32,454 nt of DNA from a virus. The translations under genes and the position numbers were made by a program. A model generated the notes under the pieces. The model did no database searches and was not told the origin of the DNA. It saw only the letters and a program-made list of their open reading frames with translations. Position 1 is the stretch's first letter. Every line of letters starts with the position of its first letter. Of this stretch, positions 2,811 to 28,070 are shown piece by piece. The stretch is from the IMG/VR virus record IMGVR_UViG_3300035698_024424, positions 1-32,454 of that record; one strand, given 5' to 3'.

Positions 2811-3074
2811 TTAGTACTTACGTCGGAAAGGACCTCTTTTTAGAAGCTTTTCATCTTCCTTGATTTGATAATCAATTCCTTTGATACCATCTGATCTGTT
2901 CAAGTCTTCAGAAGCAGAAGCGCCCGCATACGGATAGTCTTCATGCTTAATCTCTTGTGGAAGATTAGCAAAAGCTGAATAATCAGAATTGATCATCCCT
3001 TCCATGTTTGAATAATGCTGAGCACTAGTCCCAGTAACATCGCTCATACCTTTTTTCTTATATTTCTTAGCCAT
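2811..3074 (-). CDS. Small basic protein after portal, function unknown
   Basis: This 87-residue protein begins MAKKYKKKGMSDVTG and ends LLKRGPFRRKY, so it has basic termini around a polar middle. No membrane segment or known motif is seen. Its ATG overlaps the portal stop region (shared base 3074), with an AGGAG site inside the portal 3' end, so translation is probably coupled to the portal. Such small genes behind portal often encode head-assembly accessory proteins, but no family is recognised. Confidence 0.65.
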   Translation of the reverse strand: MAKKYKKKGMSDVTGTSAQHYSNMEGMINSDYSAFANLPQEIKHEDYPYAGASASEDLNRSDGIKGIDYQIKEDEKLLKRGPFRRKY

Positions 3075-5176
3075 TATAGCTCCTCTTTTAAAATAGTATC
3101 TGATAGTCCTAAATCACCTTGGTTCATTCCTGCAAGTCCTTCAATAGTTGGTTCTTGAGGGGAAGAACCAACTATCGTCGGAGTCTCTATCTCAGTTTCT
3201 TCCTGTTTTAGTAACTGTGATAATAACATTAACTTCTCTATCTGATTTATATCAATTTCATCAATTTCTTTCAATGCCCTTACCTTATTCAGCAAGCCTA
3301 CGTCTCTATCACGCTGGGCTTGCGCTATTCTTTCAACGGCCAACGCCTTGTTCTCATTTACTCGAGACGCTCGCTCTATGCCAAGGCCAGTATCTGCCAC
3401 TGCTTTGGCTTCATCACGTTTAGCTTTAGCTTGGAGTGCTTGTATCTCTGCCTGCATCTGCATGTTCTGTAGTTGTTGCTGCATTTCTGTACGCTGTTTA
3501 ACCGACTCCATAATTTTTGACTTGTTCTGTACCGTGACAGTATCCCAGATAGCGTCCTCTGGTATGTTCATCCCTGCCTCTTTCATAAACATGAGCTGGC
3601 CAAACTGCAATTGTCTTTGTGTAGTAGTATTAAGTCCATCTTCTACTGCAGCGTCATATTTACCGAACGCTTTATGATAAAACTGAGGAGAGGGCTCAGC
3701 CTCTATAATTCTTTTTACTTTACCAGGAGTGAAATTTGCCTGTATTACATCAATCATAAGCTTGCCTAATAACTTTTGAGACTGGTCAAGGTTGTCAAAA
3801 AGGATTTGAAGACTTGTCGTACCAGCTGACATCTTGAGCATCGAATGATAACCGCTTAGGGTATCCTTATTATCAAAGCCAAGCATCTCTTCTGATACTC
3901 CTGATATCTCTTGTATCTCTCTGCCTAATGAGTTAGAGAGTTCCATAGTGCTTGGCGCAATAGAGGGAGGTATAATCTGTTGCACATCTTCCATTGACGC
4001 AGAATCCTTTAAAGCAAGACCTCTGCCCTGTCCTGACATGAAGATATCTTTAGGGTTAACAAGCGCATTTTCCTTGTATTTCCAGCCAGAATTGATTTGT
4101 GACTCCATCATATCAAGCTCAATGATCTTGCGCCTATTGTACAGATACTGTGCATCTCTCAAACCTCTGGTCACTCCCTGAATACGCCAGGAGAAGTAAG
4201 GCATTTGAGGTTCATAGTAAGCAAAAACAGGAACAAAGGGATACTTATCTATATTATAAGGATGAGGACCATCATACATGACGCGTCCCTCAACAACTAT
4301 ACCAAGCTTAACGGTAGGAATCTCTTGATTAATAAGCGTTACTTGCGGATATAAAGAGAGGTAGCGCTTTAATTTTTCTTCATCAGGATGGCTCCACTCC
4401 ATAACCTCACCAGTCTGTGTGTCTACAAGCATTTTTTGGTTGCGATAGGCACGGTACCAGTACTCATCATAGGTAAGTAATGATTTGGGGCCATAGGAAT
4501 AGGCCTCGGGCATAAGTGGGAACTTGCCGTCCCTGTTAGAACCAGAACCGGTTAATGAAGCTATCTCTTGCGCATGGGCAGGAAGATAGGATATTACTGA
4601 ATCTTTAGTTAAGTAGGAACGTTTCCATATAAAGTTACAATCTGAAAGGTCCATCTTCCTAAAATAGGGATCTATCATAAAGCTATTATAGGAACAATTG
4701 TCTACCTTTATATCACCAGAAACTGGGTCTGATCTAAAGTCTAGCCATACCTGAAGCAGGTTAAGGCCTGTTACGAGTGCTCCATCAAAGGCATCAGATA
4801 CGGTCTCTAAAATCCCTTCTCGCTGACTATTCCACATAAGTATTTTAGTGAATTGGTCAGCAGTATCAGAGTCACCGTTCTCTACAGGAACCGCTATAAT
4901 TGATTTACGGTTACGCCGCTGATGGCCACCTATCATGTTCTTTATACGACGGCATCTATTGAAACAAAAGTTATTGTTTTGGTTGGCAGGAACATTACCT
5001 CCAATATAGGTCGACATATCCTGATACCCAGCATTAACGCGAGTGTCAATATCAGCCTCTGCCCAGAATTGTTGGTTTATATTGATCGATTCAGCATAGT
5101 CATTCTCCATCTTCTGCAAGAGAGGACGATGGCGTTCATCATAATAGGTAGTCCCTAGACTAGTAAATATAGACAC
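3074..5176 (-). CDS. Portal protein
   Basis: This 700-residue protein has the size of P22/N4-type portals, the dodecameric ring at the packaging vertex. Recognisable stretches include the N-terminal NNNFCFNRCRRIKNMIGGHQ region (about 67-86), the helix-rich wing DQFTKILMWNSQREG (107-121) leading to GALVTGLNLLQVWLDF, and a region near 330-365 with GVTRGLRDAQYLYNRRKI. A Gln/Ala-rich coiled coil (about 560-640) may form the barrel. It lies between terminase and scaffold, as in other phages. The frame starts with GTG at 5176 behind AAAAAGGAG with only four bases of spacing; an ATG four bases upstream is in another frame and opens only six codons, so initiation may be deliberately weak. Codons 121-131 (GILETVSDAFD) are the 33-bp sequence repeated elsewhere in the genome. 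Confidence 0.85.
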   Translation of the reverse strand: MSIFTSLGTTYYDERHRPLLQKMENDYAESININQQFWAEADIDTRVNAGYQDMSTYIGGNVPANQNNNFCFNRCRRIKNMIGGHQRRNRKSIIAVPVENGDSDTADQFTKILMWNSQREGILETVSDAFDGALVTGLNLLQVWLDFRSDPVSGDIKVDNCSYNSFMIDPYFRKMDLSDCNFIWKRSYLTKDSVISYLPAHAQEIASLTGSGSNRDGKFPLMPEAYSYGPKSLLTYDEYWYRAYRNQKMLVDTQTGEVMEWSHPDEEKLKRYLSLYPQVTLINQEIPTVKLGIVVEGRVMYDGPHPYNIDKYPFVPVFAYYEPQMPYFSWRIQGVTRGLRDAQYLYNRRKIIELDMMESQINSGWKYKENALVNPKDIFMSGQGRGLALKDSASMEDVQQIIPPSIAPSTMELSNSLGREIQEISGVSEEMLGFDNKDTLSGYHSMLKMSAGTTSLQILFDNLDQSQKLLGKLMIDVIQANFTPGKVKRIIEAEPSPQFYHKAFGKYDAAVEDGLNTTTQRQLQFGQLMFMKEAGMNIPEDAIWDTVTVQNKSKIMESVKQRTEMQQQLQNMQMQAEIQALQAKAKRDEAKAVADTGLGIERASRVNENKALAVERIAQAQRDRDVGLLNKVRALKEIDEIDINQIEKLMLLSQLLKQEETEIETPTIVGSSPQEPTIEGLAGMNQGDLGLSDTILKEEL
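4784..4816 (-). repeat. Portal-gene copy of the dispersed 33-bp sequence (probable source)
   Basis: Read in the portal sense, this begins GGGATTTTAGAGACCG and ends TATCTGATGCCTTTGAT, exactly eleven codons in phase (residues 121-131). Seven further copies lie at 8739, 8772, 10159, 12012, 12263, 13558 and 15930. The copy here fits naturally into the portal reading frame and helix pattern, which suggests it is the origin of the others. Confidence 0.9.
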
Positions 5177-6336: not shown

Positions 6337-8706
6337 TTACCTAAAGAAACGGGGAAGGTTACCTTGATCGCCATAGCGTGATTCTCTATAGTTTCTATCT
6401 ATATCTTCTGGGGTCAAGCCTTTTCGTTCTATCTTAGGGATTGCGATACACAGATAGCGCATCGCATCAGCAGCGTCTGAGTTATGGTCATGTAACGGAT
6501 TACGATGATACGTTTTTAAACGATGATCATATTGCTGTCTATAATTCTCTAATGCCTTTATAAGAACGCGACACTTATTCTGATCTATCTTCATACGAGG
6601 AAGTGTTAATCTGACACGCTCTATACCATCATTTATTGGTATATTATAAGGATCAGAAAAGTGAATGCCTAGGTTTCCATACATCTCACGATAGGTAAGG
6701 CCTGTTCCCTGCTCATGTTTCATTATGTCATGTGGCGGAAAATGTTGGCCATAGGTATACGGTTTAGACTTAATAACCTGAGCAAAATGGTCTATCTTCT
6801 CAAATGATTTCTGATAATAATCTATTACATGAATCGCTGTCCCTATAACTTGGAAGAATATGATACATGTTGGATCATTATAACCTATGTCCCAAGCAGT
6901 ATGCACTTTATGCTGCGGGTCCCAGGGTATTTCTGTTATACCATTTGATAGCCTGAGATCGTTAATATATTTAGCATAGTAGGCACCGTCTGATCCTACA
7001 TCAAAAGAACAATAGAACTCCTGTTGTATCATGTCCTCTGACATCTCTTTCCTAATCTGATCCATCTCAATGTCATCGATATGTTTTGTATCATCAAGAG
7101 TAAGCCTATAAGAGAACCAGTATGGTGATTCTAATGATGTTTTATAGAGATCATAGAAATGATTCCTTCCTTTCGGCGTTCCCAAAAATACTGCCCAGCC
7201 CTTGTTAGCGGCAAGGATAGGCCTAATAACCTCATTCCATGCCTGCGGGTACTGTTCAGCATATTCAGAGAATATTACACCTCTTGGATTAGTACCACGA
7301 AGTGAGTTCCCGGACCAACATTCTTTTCCGTTTCGACGAACTTTTATAACTCCTGAATCAGTAGAAACACAATATACCTTTCCGTCATAATCATGCGTAG
7401 TAATGTACTTCTTTATAGAAGAACAAAGTCGTTTAAATTTAGATTTTCTTACAAAAACGGCAAAATGAGGACGGAGTGACTTTATTCTTCTTCCTTTTAT
7501 GAATCCTATGGATTGCTTCCTTTGATACACATTTCCACTCTGGCCAAGTTTAATTATAATCTCTTGAACATCATCAACAAGTCTTTTAGAACTTGAATAA
7601 AACGCTGTATAAGTGGAACATGAATGACCATCTCCATCAATGAGCCATTCAAATAATACTTTGAGATATTCTCTGGAAAGATTTTTTATTTCTTGAGGTA
7701 TAAACCGTTCATGTTGCAAACCAAATTGAGAGAAATACAAATACATCTGTTGATCGGTAAAAGTAAATCTATCTTTATCTTCATAAAAATTAATATTGGC
7801 TCGCGTTAAAAGATCTCGGATCTTATCCCTTATAGCAATCTTTACTTGAGAAATAGTAATTCTATATGTTTTACTACTTTTATAAACACTACCTTCAGAT
7901 AAATAAATACCTAAAAGAGATACAAAATCTTTCATATCTAAAGAACGATTATATTCCTTTACTACTCGTCGACCTTTTCCACATACCCATTCTTTCTTGA
8001 GATGAGGGAATGTAAAGACGCTTTTATTAGCTCCATTCCAATCACATTGTGAGGGTATTGCGTCATGTATTATTGTTGGATCATCTATTCGCTTAAACTT
8101 ATAAACTCCCTTAGTGGATTTAACGAAGAATCTATGATTAGGTGTTACGACACAATCCAATGAATTATTTTTTATATGGTACATAGTTCCGCTATAGTCA
8201 TATTCCATCTTTTTATTAGGCTTCTTATACTCTAAGAATCCATCCTTTAATGTTGCTACCTTTTGGTCGCCCACATCTTTAAATAATTTCCATCCGTACT
8301 CAGTAAGTATTTCTGTCTTATCATCAAAACAAGCATAATTATCAGAGCCTACAAACTGTAAAAAAGAGCCATTTATAAGTTTTATTTTTAACTCTTGTGA
8401 ATTTTTTGAGAATATGGTCTCTGATGGTATAAAATCAAGCATCTGATTGCCTTGAATAGTAATGGCATCCCAAATAGCTTTCTTAGCCTGAGAATAGGTG
8501 GGAAATATATAGTAGTATGTTCCCACATGTGCAAACATCTCTGGTATCATGATGAGGTTGAATGCGCTTATATCTTTACCTGAACGACGAGGTTTTAAGA
8601 TTAATAAGCGTCTGAATCCGTCTATATGAAACGCTTTCCATATAGGTAATTGATAGGGCCTTGGTATAAACTTATCAAGTACTATATTTTTTACTGTTTC
8701 TGTCAT
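6337..8706 (-). CDS. Large terminase subunit interrupted by an intein
   Basis: The 789-residue precursor is the ATPase-nuclease motor that packages phage DNA through the portal. The N-extein carries a Walker A-type motif LKPRRSGKD (37-45). The C-extein carries Walker B GVIFSEYAE (476-484, catalytic Glu481), the coupling motif LGTPKGRNHF (509-518), and a nuclease domain with Asp606 (TAWDIGYNDP) and DHNSDAADAMRYL (Asp744, Asp747). Residues 126-467 are an intein, so the spliced protein would be 447 residues, normal for TerL. Splicing joins VGSDNYA to SLRGTNPRG, next to the ATPase active site. The start at 8706 has an in-frame stop just upstream and no good ribosome site; two tandem 33-bp repeats lie where leader signals would be expected. 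It follows the small-terminase candidate. Confidence 0.93.
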   Translation of the reverse strand: MTETVKNIVLDKFIPRPYQLPIWKAFHIDGFRRLLILKPRRSGKDISAFNLIMIPEMFAHVGTYYYIFPTYSQAKKAIWDAITIQGNQMLDFIPSETIFSKNSQELKIKLINGSFLQFVGSDNYACFDDKTEILTEYGWKLFKDVGDQKVATLKDGFLEYKKPNKKMEYDYSGTMYHIKNNSLDCVVTPNHRFFVKSTKGVYKFKRIDDPTIIHDAIPSQCDWNGANKSVFTFPHLKKEWVCGKGRRVVKEYNRSLDMKDFVSLLGIYLSEGSVYKSSKTYRITISQVKIAIRDKIRDLLTRANINFYEDKDRFTFTDQQMYLYFSQFGLQHERFIPQEIKNLSREYLKVLFEWLIDGDGHSCSTYTAFYSSSKRLVDDVQEIIIKLGQSGNVYQRKQSIGFIKGRRIKSLRPHFAVFVRKSKFKRLCSSIKKYITTHDYDGKVYCVSTDSGVIKVRRNGKECWSGNSLRGTNPRGVIFSEYAEQYPQAWNEVIRPILAANKGWAVFLGTPKGRNHFYDLYKTSLESPYWFSYRLTLDDTKHIDDIEMDQIRKEMSEDMIQQEFYCSFDVGSDGAYYAKYINDLRLSNGITEIPWDPQHKVHTAWDIGYNDPTCIIFFQVIGTAIHVIDYYQKSFEKIDHFAQVIKSKPYTYGQHFPPHDIMKHEQGTGLTYREMYGNLGIHFSDPYNIPINDGIERVRLTLPRMKIDQNKCRVLIKALENYRQQYDHRLKTYHRNPLHDHNSDAADAMRYLCIAIPKIERKGLTPEDIDRNYRESRYGDQGNLPRFFR
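7306..8331 (-). mobile_element. LAGLIDADG-type intein within the large terminase
   Basis: This 342-residue insertion spans residues 126-467 of the precursor. It starts with Cys (CFDDKTEILTEYGWK, block A), has block B with TPNHRFF (188-194), and has two LAGLIDADG-like helices, LLGIYLSEG (264-272) and LFEWLIDGDG (351-360). It ends VYCVSTDSG, then VRRNGKECWSGN, followed by Ser+1. Splicing chemistry is therefore Cys1/Asn-end/Ser+1. The usual penultimate His is Gly (GN), a tolerated variant in some inteins. Both homing-enzyme motifs retain acidic residues (E271, D359/D357), so the endonuclease may be active. The 5' and 3' exteins are in frame and complete. Confidence 0.92.
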
Positions 8707-8738: not shown

Positions 8739-8804
8739 GGGGTTTTTCAGACCGTATCTGATGCCTTTGATGGGGTTTTAGAGACCGTATCTGATGCCTT
8801 TGAT
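8739..8804 (-). repeat. Tandem pair of the 33-bp portal-derived sequence
   Basis: Two units abut exactly, 8739-8771 and 8772-8804. Both start GGGGTTTT and end CTGATGCCTTTGAT on the plus strand. The first reads TTTTTCAGACC and the second TTTTAGAGACC; the second differs from the portal sequence at one position and the first at three. They occupy the leader between small- and large-terminase genes. The minus-strand transcript would carry the complement of portal mRNA twice. Confidence 0.9.
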
Positions 8805-10115: not shown

Positions 10116-10136
10116 ATTAATTCCTTTACGTTTTGA

Positions 10137-10241
10137 GGCCCTGCCGGGAATTGAACCCGGGGTTTTAGAGACCGTATCTGATGCCTTTGATTGGGTTTTT
10201 GGAATGAAACTCCAACGTCCTAACCACTATACTACAGGGCC
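10137..10241 (-). tRNA. tRNA-Glu(TTC) interrupted by a 33-bp insertion
   Basis: On the minus strand the acceptor arms GGCCCTG / CAGGGCC, D-arm GTATAGTGGTTAGGAC, anticodon arm TTGGA-GTTTCAT-TCCAA (anticodon TTC) and T-arm CCGGG-TTCAATT-CCCGG are all present. The span is 105 bases; removing a 33-bp insert leaves 72, normal for tRNA-Glu. The insert sits between the anticodon stem and T-stem, in the variable region. It is the portal-derived repeat (10159-10191), flanked by AAAACC-like duplicated bases. CCA is not encoded. The gene may be dead, may yield a tRNA with a very long variable arm, or may be an assembly error. Confidence 0.85.
10159..10191 (-). repeat. 33-bp portal-derived sequence inside tRNA-Glu
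   Basis: On the plus strand it starts GGGGTTTTAGAGACCG and ends ATCTGATGCCTTTGAT, one base different from the portal copy. GGGTTTT occurs again immediately after it (10193-10199), so the insertion could have created a short target duplication. The tRNA transcript strand would be complementary to portal mRNA. Confidence 0.9.
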
Positions 10242-10679: not shown

Positions 10680-11117
10680 TCATATGGTAAACCTTATTCT
10701 CAACAGATTGTAATCTTTATCAGACAATAAAATTGAATAAACCTTATCGCCGTTCATTGATTTAGTATTCTCATGATTTTCATAAGAAGTGAACCATATA
10801 TTGACACAGATGTCATCTTTAGAGCCCAGATTAATTACTGAGCCATCATCTCCTTTTATAACAGATGGCATAAGCCTTTCTTTGGAGATATGAGGCGCAA
10901 TAATAGAGACAGGCTTTGACTTATGGACCAACGAAAATGATTCATAGGCCTCTAAGATATCCAGCACTGTTATAGAGCATGGCATATCAGTTGATTCTTT
11001 GTCATAGAAAGCATTAAAAAAATCAAGACTGTCTAATAAGTGCATAGAGTTAGAGAATGTATCTTTATCTTTGGATAATAAAGTAGCAACGATATCTTTT
11101 CTTTCAGACTTTTTCAC
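10680..11117 (-). CDS. Unknown early-region protein
   Basis: This 145-residue protein has a charged N-terminus (MKKSERKDIVATLLSKDKD) and an alternating strand-rich C-terminal half ending YSILLSDKDYNLLRIRFTI. No signal peptide, membrane helix or known motif is visible. Its ATG overlaps the stop of the preceding gene by four bases (ATGA), so the two are translationally coupled and belong to the leftward early operon. No function is proposed. Confidence 0.6.
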   Translation of the reverse strand: MKKSERKDIVATLLSKDKDTFSNSMHLLDSLDFFNAFYDKESTDMPCSITVLDILEAYESFSLVHKSKPVSIIAPHISKERLMPSVIKGDDGSVINLGSKDDICVNIWFTSYENHENTKSMNGDKVYSILLSDKDYNLLRIRFTI

Positions 11118-11329
11118 TCTTCATTCCAAAAAGCATAATTCTCTTCTTTTAGTTCCTTATAGTCAGATTCCATCTTTTCTTCGTCCATATAAGATTTAGG
11201 GAACGTTTTGTTAACCCATTCATCAACAGAACACTTGCAACCACCACGTGAAACGGCAAAACACTCTCTTAATGAACCATTACACTTAGAACAAAGTCCA
11301 GATAGATTAGAGTTTGTTGTTTTAGTCAT
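11114..11329 (-). CDS. Cys-rich putative zinc-binding small protein
   Basis: This 71-residue protein has an N-terminal Cys cluster: CSKC (13-16), a single Cys near 23, and CKC (31-33). This is enough ligands for one structural zinc. An acidic C-terminal tail follows (EEKMESDYKELKEENYAFWNEE). The ribosome site AGGAAG precedes ATG at a good distance. It overlaps the next gene by four bases. Small zinc proteins of this type are common in phage early regions, sometimes binding host polymerase, but nothing here proves a target. Confidence 0.65.
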   Translation of the reverse strand: MTKTTNSNLSGLCSKCNGSLRECFAVSRGGCKCSVDEWVNKTFPKSYMDEEKMESDYKELKEENYAFWNEE

Positions 11330-11813: not shown

Positions 11814-12068
11814 TCAACTCTTCTTCCGTAAGCGTAGGAATAACAGAATCTTTAACAAATTACGAGGATCGTCTAGTACTTCAGGGTGAAGGTTTAACTT
11901 ATCGAAGCCCTGTAACGACAGCTTACCCGTGGGATATCCTGATCGTCGCATCAGAAATCTATATCTATTCTTTTTCACATTTATTCTCCCTATCCTAAAC
12001 TCATTCATTCCGGGGTTTTTCAGACCGTATCTGATGCCTTTGATTTCGTCTAGTATACCAAAAATCAT
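11814..12068 (-). CDS. Small basic protein whose N-terminus contains the 33-bp repeat
   Basis: This is an 84-residue frame. Residues 9-19 (IKGIRYGLKNP) are encoded entirely by the repeat at 12012-12044. The remainder, from MNEFRIGRINVKKNRYRF onward, is basic and ends LKILLFLRLRKKS. No good ribosome site precedes the ATG at 12068 or the internal ATG at 12008. The original gene may have started at 12008 (64 residues) and acquired an N-terminal extension or lost its leader by the insertion. No family is recognised, and expression is uncertain. Confidence 0.45.
   Translation of the reverse strand: MIFGILDEIKGIRYGLKNPGMNEFRIGRINVKKNRYRFLMRRSGYPTGKLSLQGFDKLNLHPEVLDDPRNLLKILLFLRLRKKS
12012..12044 (-). 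repeat. 33-bp portal-derived sequence in the 84-codon frame
   Basis: It is identical to the first unit of the tandem pair (8739-8771), including the GGGGTTTTTCAGACC variant. The shared three-base deviation from the portal copy shows that these two copies are related to each other. It is open in the local reading frame. Confidence 0.9.
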
Positions 12069-12102: not shown

Positions 12103-13248
12103 CTATCGATTAATAAAAAGAGATTTTAATAAATTGCCTATAGATTTGGGCGCCCGGCCCATTCCAGTCTTAGCAGGAATCGCTAAACCTCTGGTTGCAA
12201 CAGCCAGTTTAATAGCTTCTTTTCTACAAAGGGATACAGGGGGCTTCTCAGGCTCAACAGTCGGGGTTTTAGAGACCATCTGATGCCTTTGATAGCGCTC
12301 GTTACACTCCTGCTCATACTCCAACAAGAGACTAAAATCAGTCTCATCCTCAGGTCCAACGGCATTCGGGCGCTCTTGCGGATTTTGCCCCTTAAGACTT
12401 TCTAACTCAAAGCATCGACAGTTAAAAATAAGTTCATGATCACAGGAAATGCCCTCTGCAGCCCATTGTTCCTTCACATGCTTTGTTAAAGATTCTGTTC
12501 TTCTCTTTGCAGAAAACTCTCTATCTTCTTGCATATACAACTCACTTGACCAAGGTCCTCGCGGCTGCGGGGCCGAAGGTGCAAAAGCGGCAACATTTTC
12601 TTCCTGGCAATCTATTTCTTTAAATAAACGACCTCTTATAATCTTATCTAGGGTGGTCAATTTCAGATGGCCATATTTTTCTGTGCTACCTGGGTAGCTT
12701 TTGTAGGTCAGGTAAGGCCTAATAGTTTCTATTTGTGTATAGTTACTGTTTGAATTAAATAGTACTTGTTTTACTGTCTTTTTGTTTAGAGCTGTTGGTA
12801 ATAGAAGTACTCGTCTTCCTGCATACTGCAGAGGTGACCCCGGAGAGTTTGGGGTCCAGCAGTGATCTGTTGAGAACAGGAAGACGAGCGGATAGAAAGC
12901 CCAAGAGCGTATGAGCTTTCTAAGTTTATATCTAAATGATTGTTCTCTTAATATTGGATTTAATAGGTAGACGCGAGATCTAATGTCTGGATGTAGATTT
13001 TGTAGCAGTATACCTCTTTCATTGAGCTCTTTTATTACTTTCTTTACGGTCCTTATATGAACGCCTGCTAGTCGAGCTATGGTCTTTATGGCAGGGAAAC
13101 TAATTTGATAATTATCGTCAAACCAGCCGAATTTCTCTAAAACATTGAGGTATGCAGGTGTTTGAGTGTTTAGCCATTCTAATAGTTTTTTTCCATCTTT
13201 TTCAAAACCAGCTTGACTAGTCGGGTTTTCTATGCTACTTTTATTCAT
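12103..13248 (-). CDS. Winged-helix replication-initiator-like DNA-binding protein
   Basis: This 381-residue protein has an HTH of the winged-helix, initiator type at about 51-82 (FPAIKTIARLAGVHIRTVKK, then VIKELNERGIL). A hydrophobic/basic region (100-125) and a long, variable and partly disordered C-terminal half follow. The AAAGGAAA ribosome site is next to the ATG. Directly upstream lies a non-coding, AT-rich block with tandem 26-bp repeats and palindromes, so a role in binding the origin and starting replication with host enzymes is plausible. The alternative is a transcription regulator. Residues about 319-328 are encoded by a 31-bp variant of the dispersed repeat, which keeps the frame open. 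Confidence 0.65.
   Translation of the reverse strand: MNKSSIENPTSQAGFEKDGKKLLEWLNTQTPAYLNVLEKFGWFDDNYQISFPAIKTIARLAGVHIRTVKKVIKELNERGILLQNLHPDIRSRVYLLNPILREQSFRYKLRKLIRSWAFYPLVFLFSTDHCWTPNSPGSPLQYAGRRVLLLPTALNKKTVKQVLFNSNSNYTQIETIRPYLTYKSYPGSTEKYGHLKLTTLDKIIRGRLFKEIDCQEENVAAFAPSAPQPRGPWSSELYMQEDREFSAKRRTESLTKHVKEQWAAEGISCDHELIFNCRCFELESLKGQNPQERPNAVGPEDETDFSLLLEYEQECNERYQRHQMVSKTPTVEPEKPPVSLCRKEAIKLAVATRGLAIPAKTGMGRAPKSIGNLLKSLFINR
12263..12293 (-). repeat. 31-bp variant of the portal-derived sequence inside the initiator-like gene
   Basis: It starts GGGGTTTTAGAGACC and continues ATCTGATGCCTTTGAT, lacking two bases (GT) relative to the 33-bp form. The reading frame of the host gene is retained through it (local peptide RYQRHQMVSKTP). 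Confidence 0.88.
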
Positions 13249-13271
13249 GAAATTTCCTTTATATTGGTCAT

Positions 13272-13329
13272 TTCCATAAAAAGAGATTTTATGGAATTTC
13301 CTTAAAAAGAGATTTTATGTAATTACCTT
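13272..13329. repeat. Two tandem 26-bp iteron-like repeats with palindrome
   Basis: Units at 13278-13303 and 13304-13329 share AAAAAGAGATTTTATG followed by K-AATT-W-CCTT, differing at two positions. The first unit lies within a perfect inverted repeat, TTCCATAAAA-AGAGA-TTTTATGGAA (13272-13296). It lies 24 bp upstream of the initiator-like ATG, suitable for both origin binding and autoregulation. Confidence 0.75.
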
Positions 13330-13557: not shown

Positions 13558-13591
13558 GGGGATTTTAGAGACCGTATCTGATGCCTTTGAT
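13558..13591 (-). repeat. Intergenic copy of the portal-derived sequence (exact match)
   Basis: Bases 13559-13591 are identical to the 33 bases of the portal gene, including GGGATTTTAGAG. This is the only dispersed copy without a substitution. It lies in the 3' flank of the HTH regulator gene. Confidence 0.9.
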
Positions 13592-13901: not shown

Positions 13902-13929
13902 TTGACATATCTAATCATATATATATAAT
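13902..13929 (+). promoter_or_regulatory. Consensus sigma70-type rightward promoter
   Basis: TTGACA (13902-13907) and TATAAT (13924-13929) are perfect hexamers with a 16-bp spacer, ahead of the operon starting at 14020. It lies between the HTH regulator and that operon, so probably an early promoter under control of the regulator. The AT repeats in the spacer (CATATATA) could be part of an operator. Confidence 0.8.
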
Positions 13930-15679: not shown

Positions 15680-15979
15680 ATGCCAGTAGAAATGCCCTAT
15701 ATAGGGCCTAATGCTATCTACTATATAATTATAGAACTGTTCTGCTTAGCAGGTATATGGTTTATCTTAGAAGGATTAAGTAAACAAACCCCAAAACTCA
15801 AAGGACTCACTATGACTCTTTTAGGAATAGTACTTATTGTAGGACCTCTTTCTTATCTACCCCTTATAGGATCAGAGGAAAAGCCTCGTCTTGATAGGGG
15901 CAATGAATTCAGAAACGAAAAACAACAGAATCAAAGGCATCAGATACGGTTCCGGTTGCCACTACATACAATAGAATAA
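15680..15979 (+). CDS. Two-helix membrane protein with repeat-derived C-terminus
   Basis: This 99-residue protein has two predicted membrane helices, about 14-30 (YIIIELFCLAGIWFILE) and 42-62 (LTMTLLGIVLIVGPLSYLPL), joined by a short basic loop (KQTPKLKG). A charged C-terminal tail follows. The tail segment QRHQIR near residues 85-90 comes from a 21-bp core of the portal-derived repeat. Small size and two helices would suit a holin, but no endolysin is linked to it, so this is only a possibility. It lies in the SPFH-ERF operon. Confidence 0.55.
   Translation: MPVEMPYIGPNAIYYIIIELFCLAGIWFILEGLSKQTPKLKGLTMTLLGIVLIVGPLSYLPLIGSEEKPRLDRGNEFRNEKQQNQRHQIRFRLPLHTIE
15930..15950 (+). repeat. 21-bp core of the portal-derived sequence, inverted relative to other copies
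   Basis: ATCAAAGGCATCAGATACGG plus one T on the plus strand is the complement of the portal coding sequence. The neighbouring GGGGTTTTAGAG part is absent. This copy is flipped relative to the others, matching the reversed transcription of this operon. Confidence 0.85.
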
Positions 15980-25850: not shown

Positions 25851-28070
25851 CTAACGGTCAGAAGTGCTCATTCCGTACGCTAAAAACGCGTTAAGCGTAA
25901 AGTCGTTGAACGGTATAGCAACTTTTCCTTCCTCAGGAACAATAACCATTTGTTCGTCAGTATGATATAAGTGTATTTGTACAAGCTCGCCCTCTGCTTG
26001 GAAATAGACTGATTTCCAGAACTTGTTCTGTTGTGCTTCAAAGGTATCAGGTAGAGGAAACATCTCAAGAACACTGGTTCCGATCAACGCGCCCGTAGCA
26101 GCACCTCCATCAACCAAAGAAAGAGAAGAATCTGACACCCACATATCAGCAAGAAGTTGTCCATTGTTGGTATTATTTACATAAAACTCTATACGAGGAA
26201 GATAGACGTTCATGCCCTGCTTATTGTAGAAGTTATACTGCTTGGTAAGTATATCAATACGAGATACTCGTTCAACAGTTCCACCACCAGTATACGTACC
26301 TGTAAAGGTACCCAGTATAGTTATATTATCAGCATTTACAAAGGTAACCTTATAGATAAACCCATTAATATCTGTGGTGCCCTGTACATTATCTATAAAG
26401 ATAAAATCGTTACTGTTAAGGTTATGATCAATAATAGTAATAGTATTAGTTACAATATTAATATCAGTAATCTGCAAAGAAGGAGAATTACGAGAGATTG
26501 AGTTGGGCCTAATGTTAAAGGTATAGCCTTCCTGGTTGCCCGCTACTACGTTTCTGAAATCTGTTTGTGTAGCGCCCGTATTCCACGCAAAGTTAGATGA
26601 TTCCCAGGTAAAGTTCCAGGTAGCCCATGTTAATTGAGAAGGATTATTAAAATAGCCCCAGGCTGTTATAGAGTCGTCATTGAATGCCCATGTACCATTA
26701 GTATAGTTATACACTAATATACGATTAGGAAATGTTGGAGATCCCTGTGCTGATGGAAATGACCAATATACCTGCTCTGCTTCAAAATCACGTACACCAT
26801 GCACTCTTAATGGACCATCATTAGAATTATGTATCTCAAATACTTCGTTAGGTATCTTCTGATCAACACGGTCAACAGAAGCACCAGATGTTGCATGGAT
26901 ACCTACTTGCCCTATACCAAGAACTACCTTATCAAAGTTAACAATAGAGAAGGTAGATTCAGCACCAATCTCACTATTAAGCTTCTGCCATACGAAAGGG
27001 AGTACTTGATTGCCTGTATAGACGAGCTCCCAGGTAGATTTCTCAAAATATACAATTAATCTGTCTTTCAATATTGAAGCCGATACAATAGATTCCTTTG
27101 TAGGAGCATCAACATAGCCACCTCTTCCTGGCGTATCTTCTAGCCATGCTAATGTTACTGTAGGAAGGGCCTGTATTGGACTTCCATTTTGAGGGAAACG
27201 AGCTCTATTAACAAAAGTAGTATATCCCGTACGATCCTCTATGGTATTTAAAGCAACTAATCGGTCCTTAAAAGGGATAATAATAAGAGCAGTCTCAAGC
27301 GTATCGCCTGCTGCATTAATAATAGGGTTTATGGTGGTCCATGCAGCACCGTCCCAGTATTTTATCTGATCAGCAGCTATATAATTTGTAGTAAAGAGAA
27401 ACTGTTCTTCAGAAGTGTCACCTCTCCAAGTTCGTGACCAAAAGAAGTCAGAGTTAGTACCAGTCCATAGAGCAGTACCTAACCTGTTCCAGCCTCCACC
27501 GGTATATTGATAGGCAAACTGGGTATCAAAGGCATACGTAGGATCCTGGTTTATAGCGCCTTGTTCATGAATAGTAAATCCCATAACAGATTCTGCTGGA
27601 TAGAAAAAGATTTGAGTGCTTGCAGTAGCACCTGCAAAAACATACGCACCCGGTGTTCCGCTAACAGCAGTATGATAATTACCAGTACCTGTTCCTGTAT
27701 TTAGCATTAATACGGGCGCACCATCATCTTGAACAGTGAAAATCTGGGTACCAATAGAGAACATTTGTCCTATCTTAAAGACTGCGCCAGGAACTGTTCC
27801 GGTAGCATTACCAGCTCCATCAGTCTGACCAAATCCTGATCCACCAGTAAGTGCTATTCTTAGCCTACTATTTAACTGCTCAAATCCTGGGACTGGCGGT
27901 GAAGTGGAATCAAAGAGTAGCTCTGCACCGAATCGTTTTCTGATACGGCCTCTAAAGTTGTAAGCATTTCTAAGACGAGCATATGCATCATCTGCAATAA
28001 GGAATGATTCCAGATTACGCTCTAATCCAGACTCAAGAGGGCCTATCCAAAAACGATCATATTTAGCCAT
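25851..28070 (-). CDS. Large tail protein (tail nozzle/hub candidate)
   Basis: The 739-residue protein begins MAKYDRFWIGPLESGLERNL, then AYARLRNAYNFRGRIRKRFG. The repeated beta segments (WNRLGTALWTGTNSDFFWSR, YWDGAAWTTINPIINAAGDT, NGTWAFNDDSITAWGYF) suggest a beta-propeller-like core as in P22 gp10 / T7 gp12-type tail nozzles. An FCCH-like module lies at about 532-602 (IIDHNLNSNDFIFIDNVQG, then INGFIYKVTFVNADNITIL). It is immediately downstream of the appendage and connector genes. I am fairly sure it is a tail protein, less sure of the exact part. Confidence 0.7.
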   Translation of the reverse strand: MAKYDRFWIGPLESGLERNLESFLIADDAYARLRNAYNFRGRIRKRFGAELLFDSTSPPVPGFEQLNSRLRIALTGGSGFGQTDGAGNATGTVPGAVFKIGQMFSIGTQIFTVQDDGAPVLMLNTGTGTGNYHTAVSGTPGAYVFAGATASTQIFFYPAESVMGFTIHEQGAINQDPTYAFDTQFAYQYTGGGWNRLGTALWTGTNSDFFWSRTWRGDTSEEQFLFTTNYIAADQIKYWDGAAWTTINPIINAAGDTLETALIIIPFKDRLVALNTIEDRTGYTTFVNRARFPQNGSPIQALPTVTLAWLEDTPGRGGYVDAPTKESIVSASILKDRLIVYFEKSTWELVYTGNQVLPFVWQKLNSEIGAESTFSIVNFDKVVLGIGQVGIHATSGASVDRVDQKIPNEVFEIHNSNDGPLRVHGVRDFEAEQVYWSFPSAQGSPTFPNRILVYNYTNGTWAFNDDSITAWGYFNNPSQLTWATWNFTWESSNFAWNTGATQTDFRNVVAGNQEGYTFNIRPNSISRNSPSLQITDINIVTNTITIIDHNLNSNDFIFIDNVQGTTDINGFIYKVTFVNADNITILGTFTGTYTGGGTVERVSRIDILTKQYNFYNKQGMNVYLPRIEFYVNNTNNGQLLADMWVSDSSLSLVDGGAATGALIGTSVLEMFPLPDTFEAQQNKFWKSVYFQAEGELVQIHLYHTDEQMVIVPEEGKVAIPFNDFTLNAFLAYGMSTSDR

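Follow-up and report, generated by a model that had tools for sequence, protein, structure and literature searches.

How did a piece of a phage structural gene come to lie inside a tRNA gene, and does it serve any purpose there? The window analysed here is the whole of a linear virus record of 32,454 bases (IMGVR_UViG_3300035698_024424), which carries on its minus strand, at 10137..10241, a tRNA-Glu(UUC) gene with an interrupted variable region. This gene is 105 nt long, and 72 nt without the insert. The covariance search (cmscan) places RF00005 on 10136-10241 of the minus strand at 49.9 bits, against a cut-off of 29 bits, spanning model positions 1-71, with 34 inserted columns that separate the anticodon arm from the T arm. 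ARAGORN does not report the interrupted gene in the intact window, but calls a clean tRNA-Glu(ttc) of the standard 72 nt once 33 nt are excised. The sequence-only reading had placed a tRNA-Glu at these positions, with a variable segment enlarged from 5 to 38 bases and all arms still pairable; the two callers bore this out, cmscan calling the 105-nt form and ARAGORN only the excised one, and the same two lengths of the variable region were obtained. Three stems are intact, the acceptor with 7 bp and the anticodon and T stems with 5 bp each; their predicted pairing probabilities exceed 0.9 except at the outermost pair of the T stem (0.67). With or without the insert, the predicted D stem is weak, and in the predicted minimum fold with the insert part of it pairs with the D loop. 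By its cloverleaf arms and its score above the cut-off, the gene belongs to the tRNA family (RF00005), isotype Glu, and the insertion in it is confirmed as real. Glutamate is encoded 212 times by GAA and 151 times by GAG among the 6217 codons of the main genes, counts that do not by themselves tell whether the phage needs this tRNA.

The exact register of the insertion has some play. Direct reading and the excision test place the 33 nt at 10160..10192 on the minus strand, and this register can slide to 10167-10199 because AAAACCC (GGGTTTT on the plus strand) stands on both sides. Bases 10159-10191, which had been named as the inserted element, are correct for the repeat unit as aligned with its other copies (copy C), but are one base off for the insertion, base 10159 being part of the T stem of the tRNA. 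The flanking GGGTTTT had been likened to a target duplication. It is indeed present on both sides, but it is the repeat's own end and also the tRNA's own sequence, and is therefore ambiguous and a poor witness of such a duplication; the direct repeat of 7 nt is found at the tRNA only, the other loci having none, and thus no flanking repeat of constant length accompanies the insertions. Without the insert the tRNA reads AAAAACCCCGGG, which has AAAACCCCGG in common with the copies at 8739 and 12012.

The insert is one member of a repeat family whose source lies in the portal gene (3074-5176), at 4784..4816 on the minus strand, codons GILETVSDAFD. In 23 related portal genes (46-63% identity) this segment is ungapped and its residues are kept (ILETVSDAF-like), with different DNA, so the portal copy is native and the others are ectopic. 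Seven ectopic copies occupy six loci in the stretch from 8.7 to 16 kb; copies A, B, D, E and F are given on the plus strand. Copy A (8739..8771, variant TTTCAG) stands in tandem with copy B (8772..8804), between TerL and the upstream gene; copy B is identical to the tRNA copy over 33/33 nt. Copy D (12012..12044), also of variant TTTCAG, has 36 nt in common with A, and on the minus strand it starts 7 nt after the -10 box of a promoter-like TTAACA-16-TATACT. Copy E (12263..12293) is 31 nt long, with a deletion of 2 nt, and lies in the open frame of a replication-initiator-like gene (12103-13248). Copy F (13559..13591) matches the portal at 33/33 positions and has a fourth G at its end, and copy G (15930..15950, minus strand) retains 21 nt only, at the C-terminal end of ORF 15680-15979 (plus strand). 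Apart from the single 2-nt deletion the copies are identical over a 21-nt core, which occurs 7 times in the window and in none of 100 dinucleotide shuffles; one of their ends (...TTTGAT) is fixed, and the opposite end, save in copy G, consists of a run of G/C. The unit has no palindrome and is predicted to fold at -1.2 kcal/mol on the transcribed strand and -8.5 kcal/mol on the other.

Some neighbouring features were also seen. Some 342 codons are inserted in frame in the TerL gene (6337-8706); this intein-like stretch has a LAGLIDADG match and is absent from the terminases of relatives. Three ATAAAAAGAGATTTTA-type repeats at 13270-13328 and 12113-12139, at both ends of the initiator-like gene, are possible candidates for initiator-binding sites.

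The small differences among the copies suggest an order of descent. The portal, read in antisense, has ...CTCTAAAATCCCTTC; the copy at 13559 reads CTCTAAAATCCCC, combining the portal's AAAAT with the family's fourth C; those at 8772, 10159 and 12263 read CTCTAAAACCCC, with AAAACCCC; and those at 8739 and 12012 read CTGAAAAACCCCGGA, with AG added to TC. By these letters, copy 13559 appears as an intermediate between the portal and the remaining copies, and copy F is the likely founder of the dispersed set. The simplest order, from parsimony and not as proof, would run from the portal to 13559, then to the AAAACCCC set and finally to the CTGAAAAA pair, although the shared CCGG could also make 8739 and 12012 descendants of the tRNA copy. 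The sequence-only reading took the tRNA element to be portal-derived. The relation to the portal holds, with 29 nt of contiguous identity to 4784-4816 and 32/33 over the unit (one base different), but a direct origin was given up for probable descent via copy F: since the tRNA copy is identical to that at 8772, it probably arrived through the dispersed family and the AAAACCCC shared with the tRNA.

Searches of other genomes found the family nowhere else. The exact 21-mer core is in no other IMG/VR record and, by exact matching, in none of 84,980 species genomes; plasmids searched for distant matches to the 33-mer unit gave none, matches to Klebsiella tail-fibre sequences (E 0.08-0.3) were taken as chance, and there are no such copies at the loci of 25 relatives. 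In a related phage (L024:1176-1298), AAAACCCC and AAAATCCC motifs resembling the unit ends lie in a tandem repeat of 62 nt, in which no further likeness to the unit was seen. A search of viral contigs for tRNA-Glu with an enlarged variable region gave 31 matches; none of the 16 loci checked with Rfam is a tRNA-Glu with an insert, most overlapping a tRNA of ordinary length, and the remaining loci were judged by eye. The tRNA's own sequence, with or without the insert, is in no other record searched, and related phages with the identical tRNA lacking the insert, which would have spoken against the original reading, were looked for and none was found. The nearest phage tRNA-Glu, that of Synechococcus phage S-CREM1, is 76% identical, and its alignment to the excised tRNA has no large gap. 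No empty site came to light among relatives of the initiator-like gene or of ORF 10680-11117, in collections that may leave out records very near this one. The multiplication is accordingly no more than presumed to be recent.

At all six ectopic loci, the strand antisense to the portal is the one that follows local transcription (two-sided sign test, p = 0.03): five are in leftward genes, and that at 15930 is on the opposite DNA strand, in a rightward block that starts after a 12/12 sigma-70-like promoter at 13902. The loci also span just 7.2 kb of 32 kb (p = 0.003); both p values are subject to the reservation that, had copies spread locally, the loci would depend on one another. The tRNA transcript would, as had been proposed, contain the strand complementary to portal mRNA, with a predicted duplex of -56 kcal/mol over the element, and the predicted duplexes of the copies with portal mRNA range from -37 to -60 kcal/mol. 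The suggestion that the tRNA acts as an antisense scaffold is unsupported. With the repeat family masked, two inverted matches and one direct match remain in the window, where a Markov null gives 0.03 per orientation. A possible second case of antisense copying is an exact inverted copy of 18 nt from the tail gene 25851-28070 (13260..13277, plus strand, vs 26753-26770), located in the leader of gene 12103-13248 and antisense there to the tail sense strand, near its YWSFPS codons. A possible third is an inverted copy of 22 nt with 1 mismatch in ORF 11814-12068 (11838..11859, plus strand, vs 12482-12503), its counterpart lying inside gene 12103-13248. Both are antisense to local transcription, and no inverted matches were found in 33 other phage loci covering 5.4 times the pair space; as short matches picked out post hoc, they are suggestive of extra antisense gene copies. 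The direct match (8193-8213 / 11158-11178; 21 nt, 1 mismatch) pairs the intein-like insert of the terminase with ORF 11114-11329.

The explanation that we consider best, and to which we give about an even chance, is that the insert belongs to a short dispersed repeat that was seeded by the portal gene, multiplied recently and spread by short-homology recombination. An 11-codon piece of the portal gene would have been captured in antisense near 13.56 kb as copy F; one base would then have been lost (AAAATCCCC to AAAACCCC), and the 33-nt unit would have reached five further loci in the non-structural region. The gene for tRNA-Glu would already have had AAAACCCCGG at the junction of variable region and T stem, the same letters as the unit's end, and short-homology recombination or template switching at AAAACCCCGG may have brought one unit into the variable region. 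An ERF-family annealing protein (6e-22) and a RusA-like resolvase (6e-18), for both of which the phage has genes, plausibly assisted. A unit at this position would leave the acceptor, anticodon and T stems intact, and it is probably tolerated because the phage tRNA is dispensable. Undirected spread predicts neither the antisense orientation nor the clustering, which therefore argue against it, although the clustering could be explained by intolerance of structural genes; the additional pair of short inverted copies, which come from other genes, and the lack of an empty site in any near relative searched are likewise counted against it.

The chief rival is a selected RNA element. On such a reading the early transcripts, including the tRNA, would be complementary to portal mRNA or would mimic a host RNA, tuning portal expression or neutralising an RNA-based host defence, as in phage PhiTE, which expands 36-nt pseudo-ToxI repeats and thereby escapes ToxIN (PMC3475682). 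The antisense placement of all six loci, with G on the other strand, the identity of the 21-nt core, the stability of the predicted portal duplexes, the start of copy D just behind a promoter-like box and the two additional inverted copies would all fit, but the target is portal codons 121-131 and not the gene start, two or three copies lie within open reading frames, and silencing its own portal would be costly to the phage. The transcribed strand of the element has no stable fold, nor is the element clearly more unpaired than its surroundings. Thus weighed, a selected RNA is possible but rather unlikely. A broader version, which we hold to be unlikely, is that short antisense stretches of the phage's structural and replication genes are kept in its early transcripts, one of them in a stable tRNA, with the portal represented many times and perhaps the tail and initiator genes as well, for RNA-based timing of late genes or for RNA shielding from host defence.

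The remaining readings are less probable still. Copies might act as DNA, binding a phage or host protein as operator, origin or packaging site, with the portal match marking such a site there; they are oriented within the control and replication region and contain an imperfect dyad, which becomes TCAGA-CCGTA-TCTGA in copies A and D, but identity over 21 nt without degeneracy is unusual for operators, and the portal codons are conserved for the protein, the DNA of relatives differing at this segment, so that we think a DNA-level site improbable. Equally improbable is an artefact of assembly or library preparation that put the 33-mer of the portal into a metagenomic contig: the source is a single uncultivated contig, and the 21-mer's absence from other records and the empty plasmid search with the unit would agree with this, yet each of six loci would need two false joins where the flanks are continuous, and an ordered set of changes common to the copies is not expected from a copying artefact. 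Enzymatic integration of one defined short DNA, for instance an off-target 33-bp CRISPR prespacer placed by host Cas1-Cas2, would suit the 33-nt length, the fixed end and the integration-like flanking repeat. That flanking repeat is seen in the tRNA only, however, one sequence was used repeatedly, the changes common to the copies look like descent of one from another, and no cas gene is among the proteins scanned, which makes this reading highly improbable.

Measured against the reviews cited below, an insert that derives from a gene and sits in the variable region of a tRNA would be without precedent in bacteria and their phages. The family offers a snapshot of a short gene stretch turning into a dispersed repeat. 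It also offers a way to test directly for antisense sequences that phages embed in stable RNAs.

Class II tRNAs (Leu, Ser, Tyr) also have a long variable region, one compatible with function, but the present isotype, Glu, is class I, and the insert, unlike theirs, forms no proper variable arm in the predicted fold. Group I and group II introns have a catalytic core of about 100 nt or more, and archaeal-type protein-spliced tRNA introns have a bulge-helix-bulge at the exon-intron junctions. Inspection of the predicted folds of the interrupted tRNA, as distinct from a dedicated motif search, revealed no bulge-helix-bulge. A review describes the tRNA genes of bacteria as uniform, the one significant exception being introns of groups I and II at 37/38, and the known bacterial tRNA introns are self-splicing and mostly at that position (PMC4033280). 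A self-splicing intron of either group was rejected, as 33 nt is too short, the variable region is not 37/38 and no Rfam intron matched. The archaeal tRNA-Thr intron at 45/46 occupies the same region of the tRNA as the present insert, and integration of mobile elements has been proposed for intron gain there (PMC3293823). Splicing, or a tRNA-intron identity of the insert, is unsupported.

Rickettsia palindromic elements are repeats found inside the open frames of functional genes (PMC6649704) and, like the present unit, are short and dispersed both in intergenic DNA and within open frames, which makes them the closest parallel to a repeat lying in reading frames. They are palindromic and transposable, whereas the present unit of 33 nt barely folds (-1.2 / -8.5 kcal/mol), is non-palindromic and comes from a gene of its own genome, and identity with them was rejected. 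The pseudo-ToxI of PhiTE is likewise a repeat of about 36 nt multiplied in a phage genome, with a non-coding RNA strand implied, but it is tandem at one locus and resembles a host antitoxin (PMC3475682), whereas the present repeat is dispersed and portal-derived, with no known antitoxin match. Racrs are also short single units in phage genomes (PMC10651486); they resemble CRISPR repeats, whereas the present core matches the phage's own portal and, compared exactly with 84,980 species genomes, matches none of them. PhiTE pseudo-ToxI and the Racrs would be the nearest precedents for a selected RNA.
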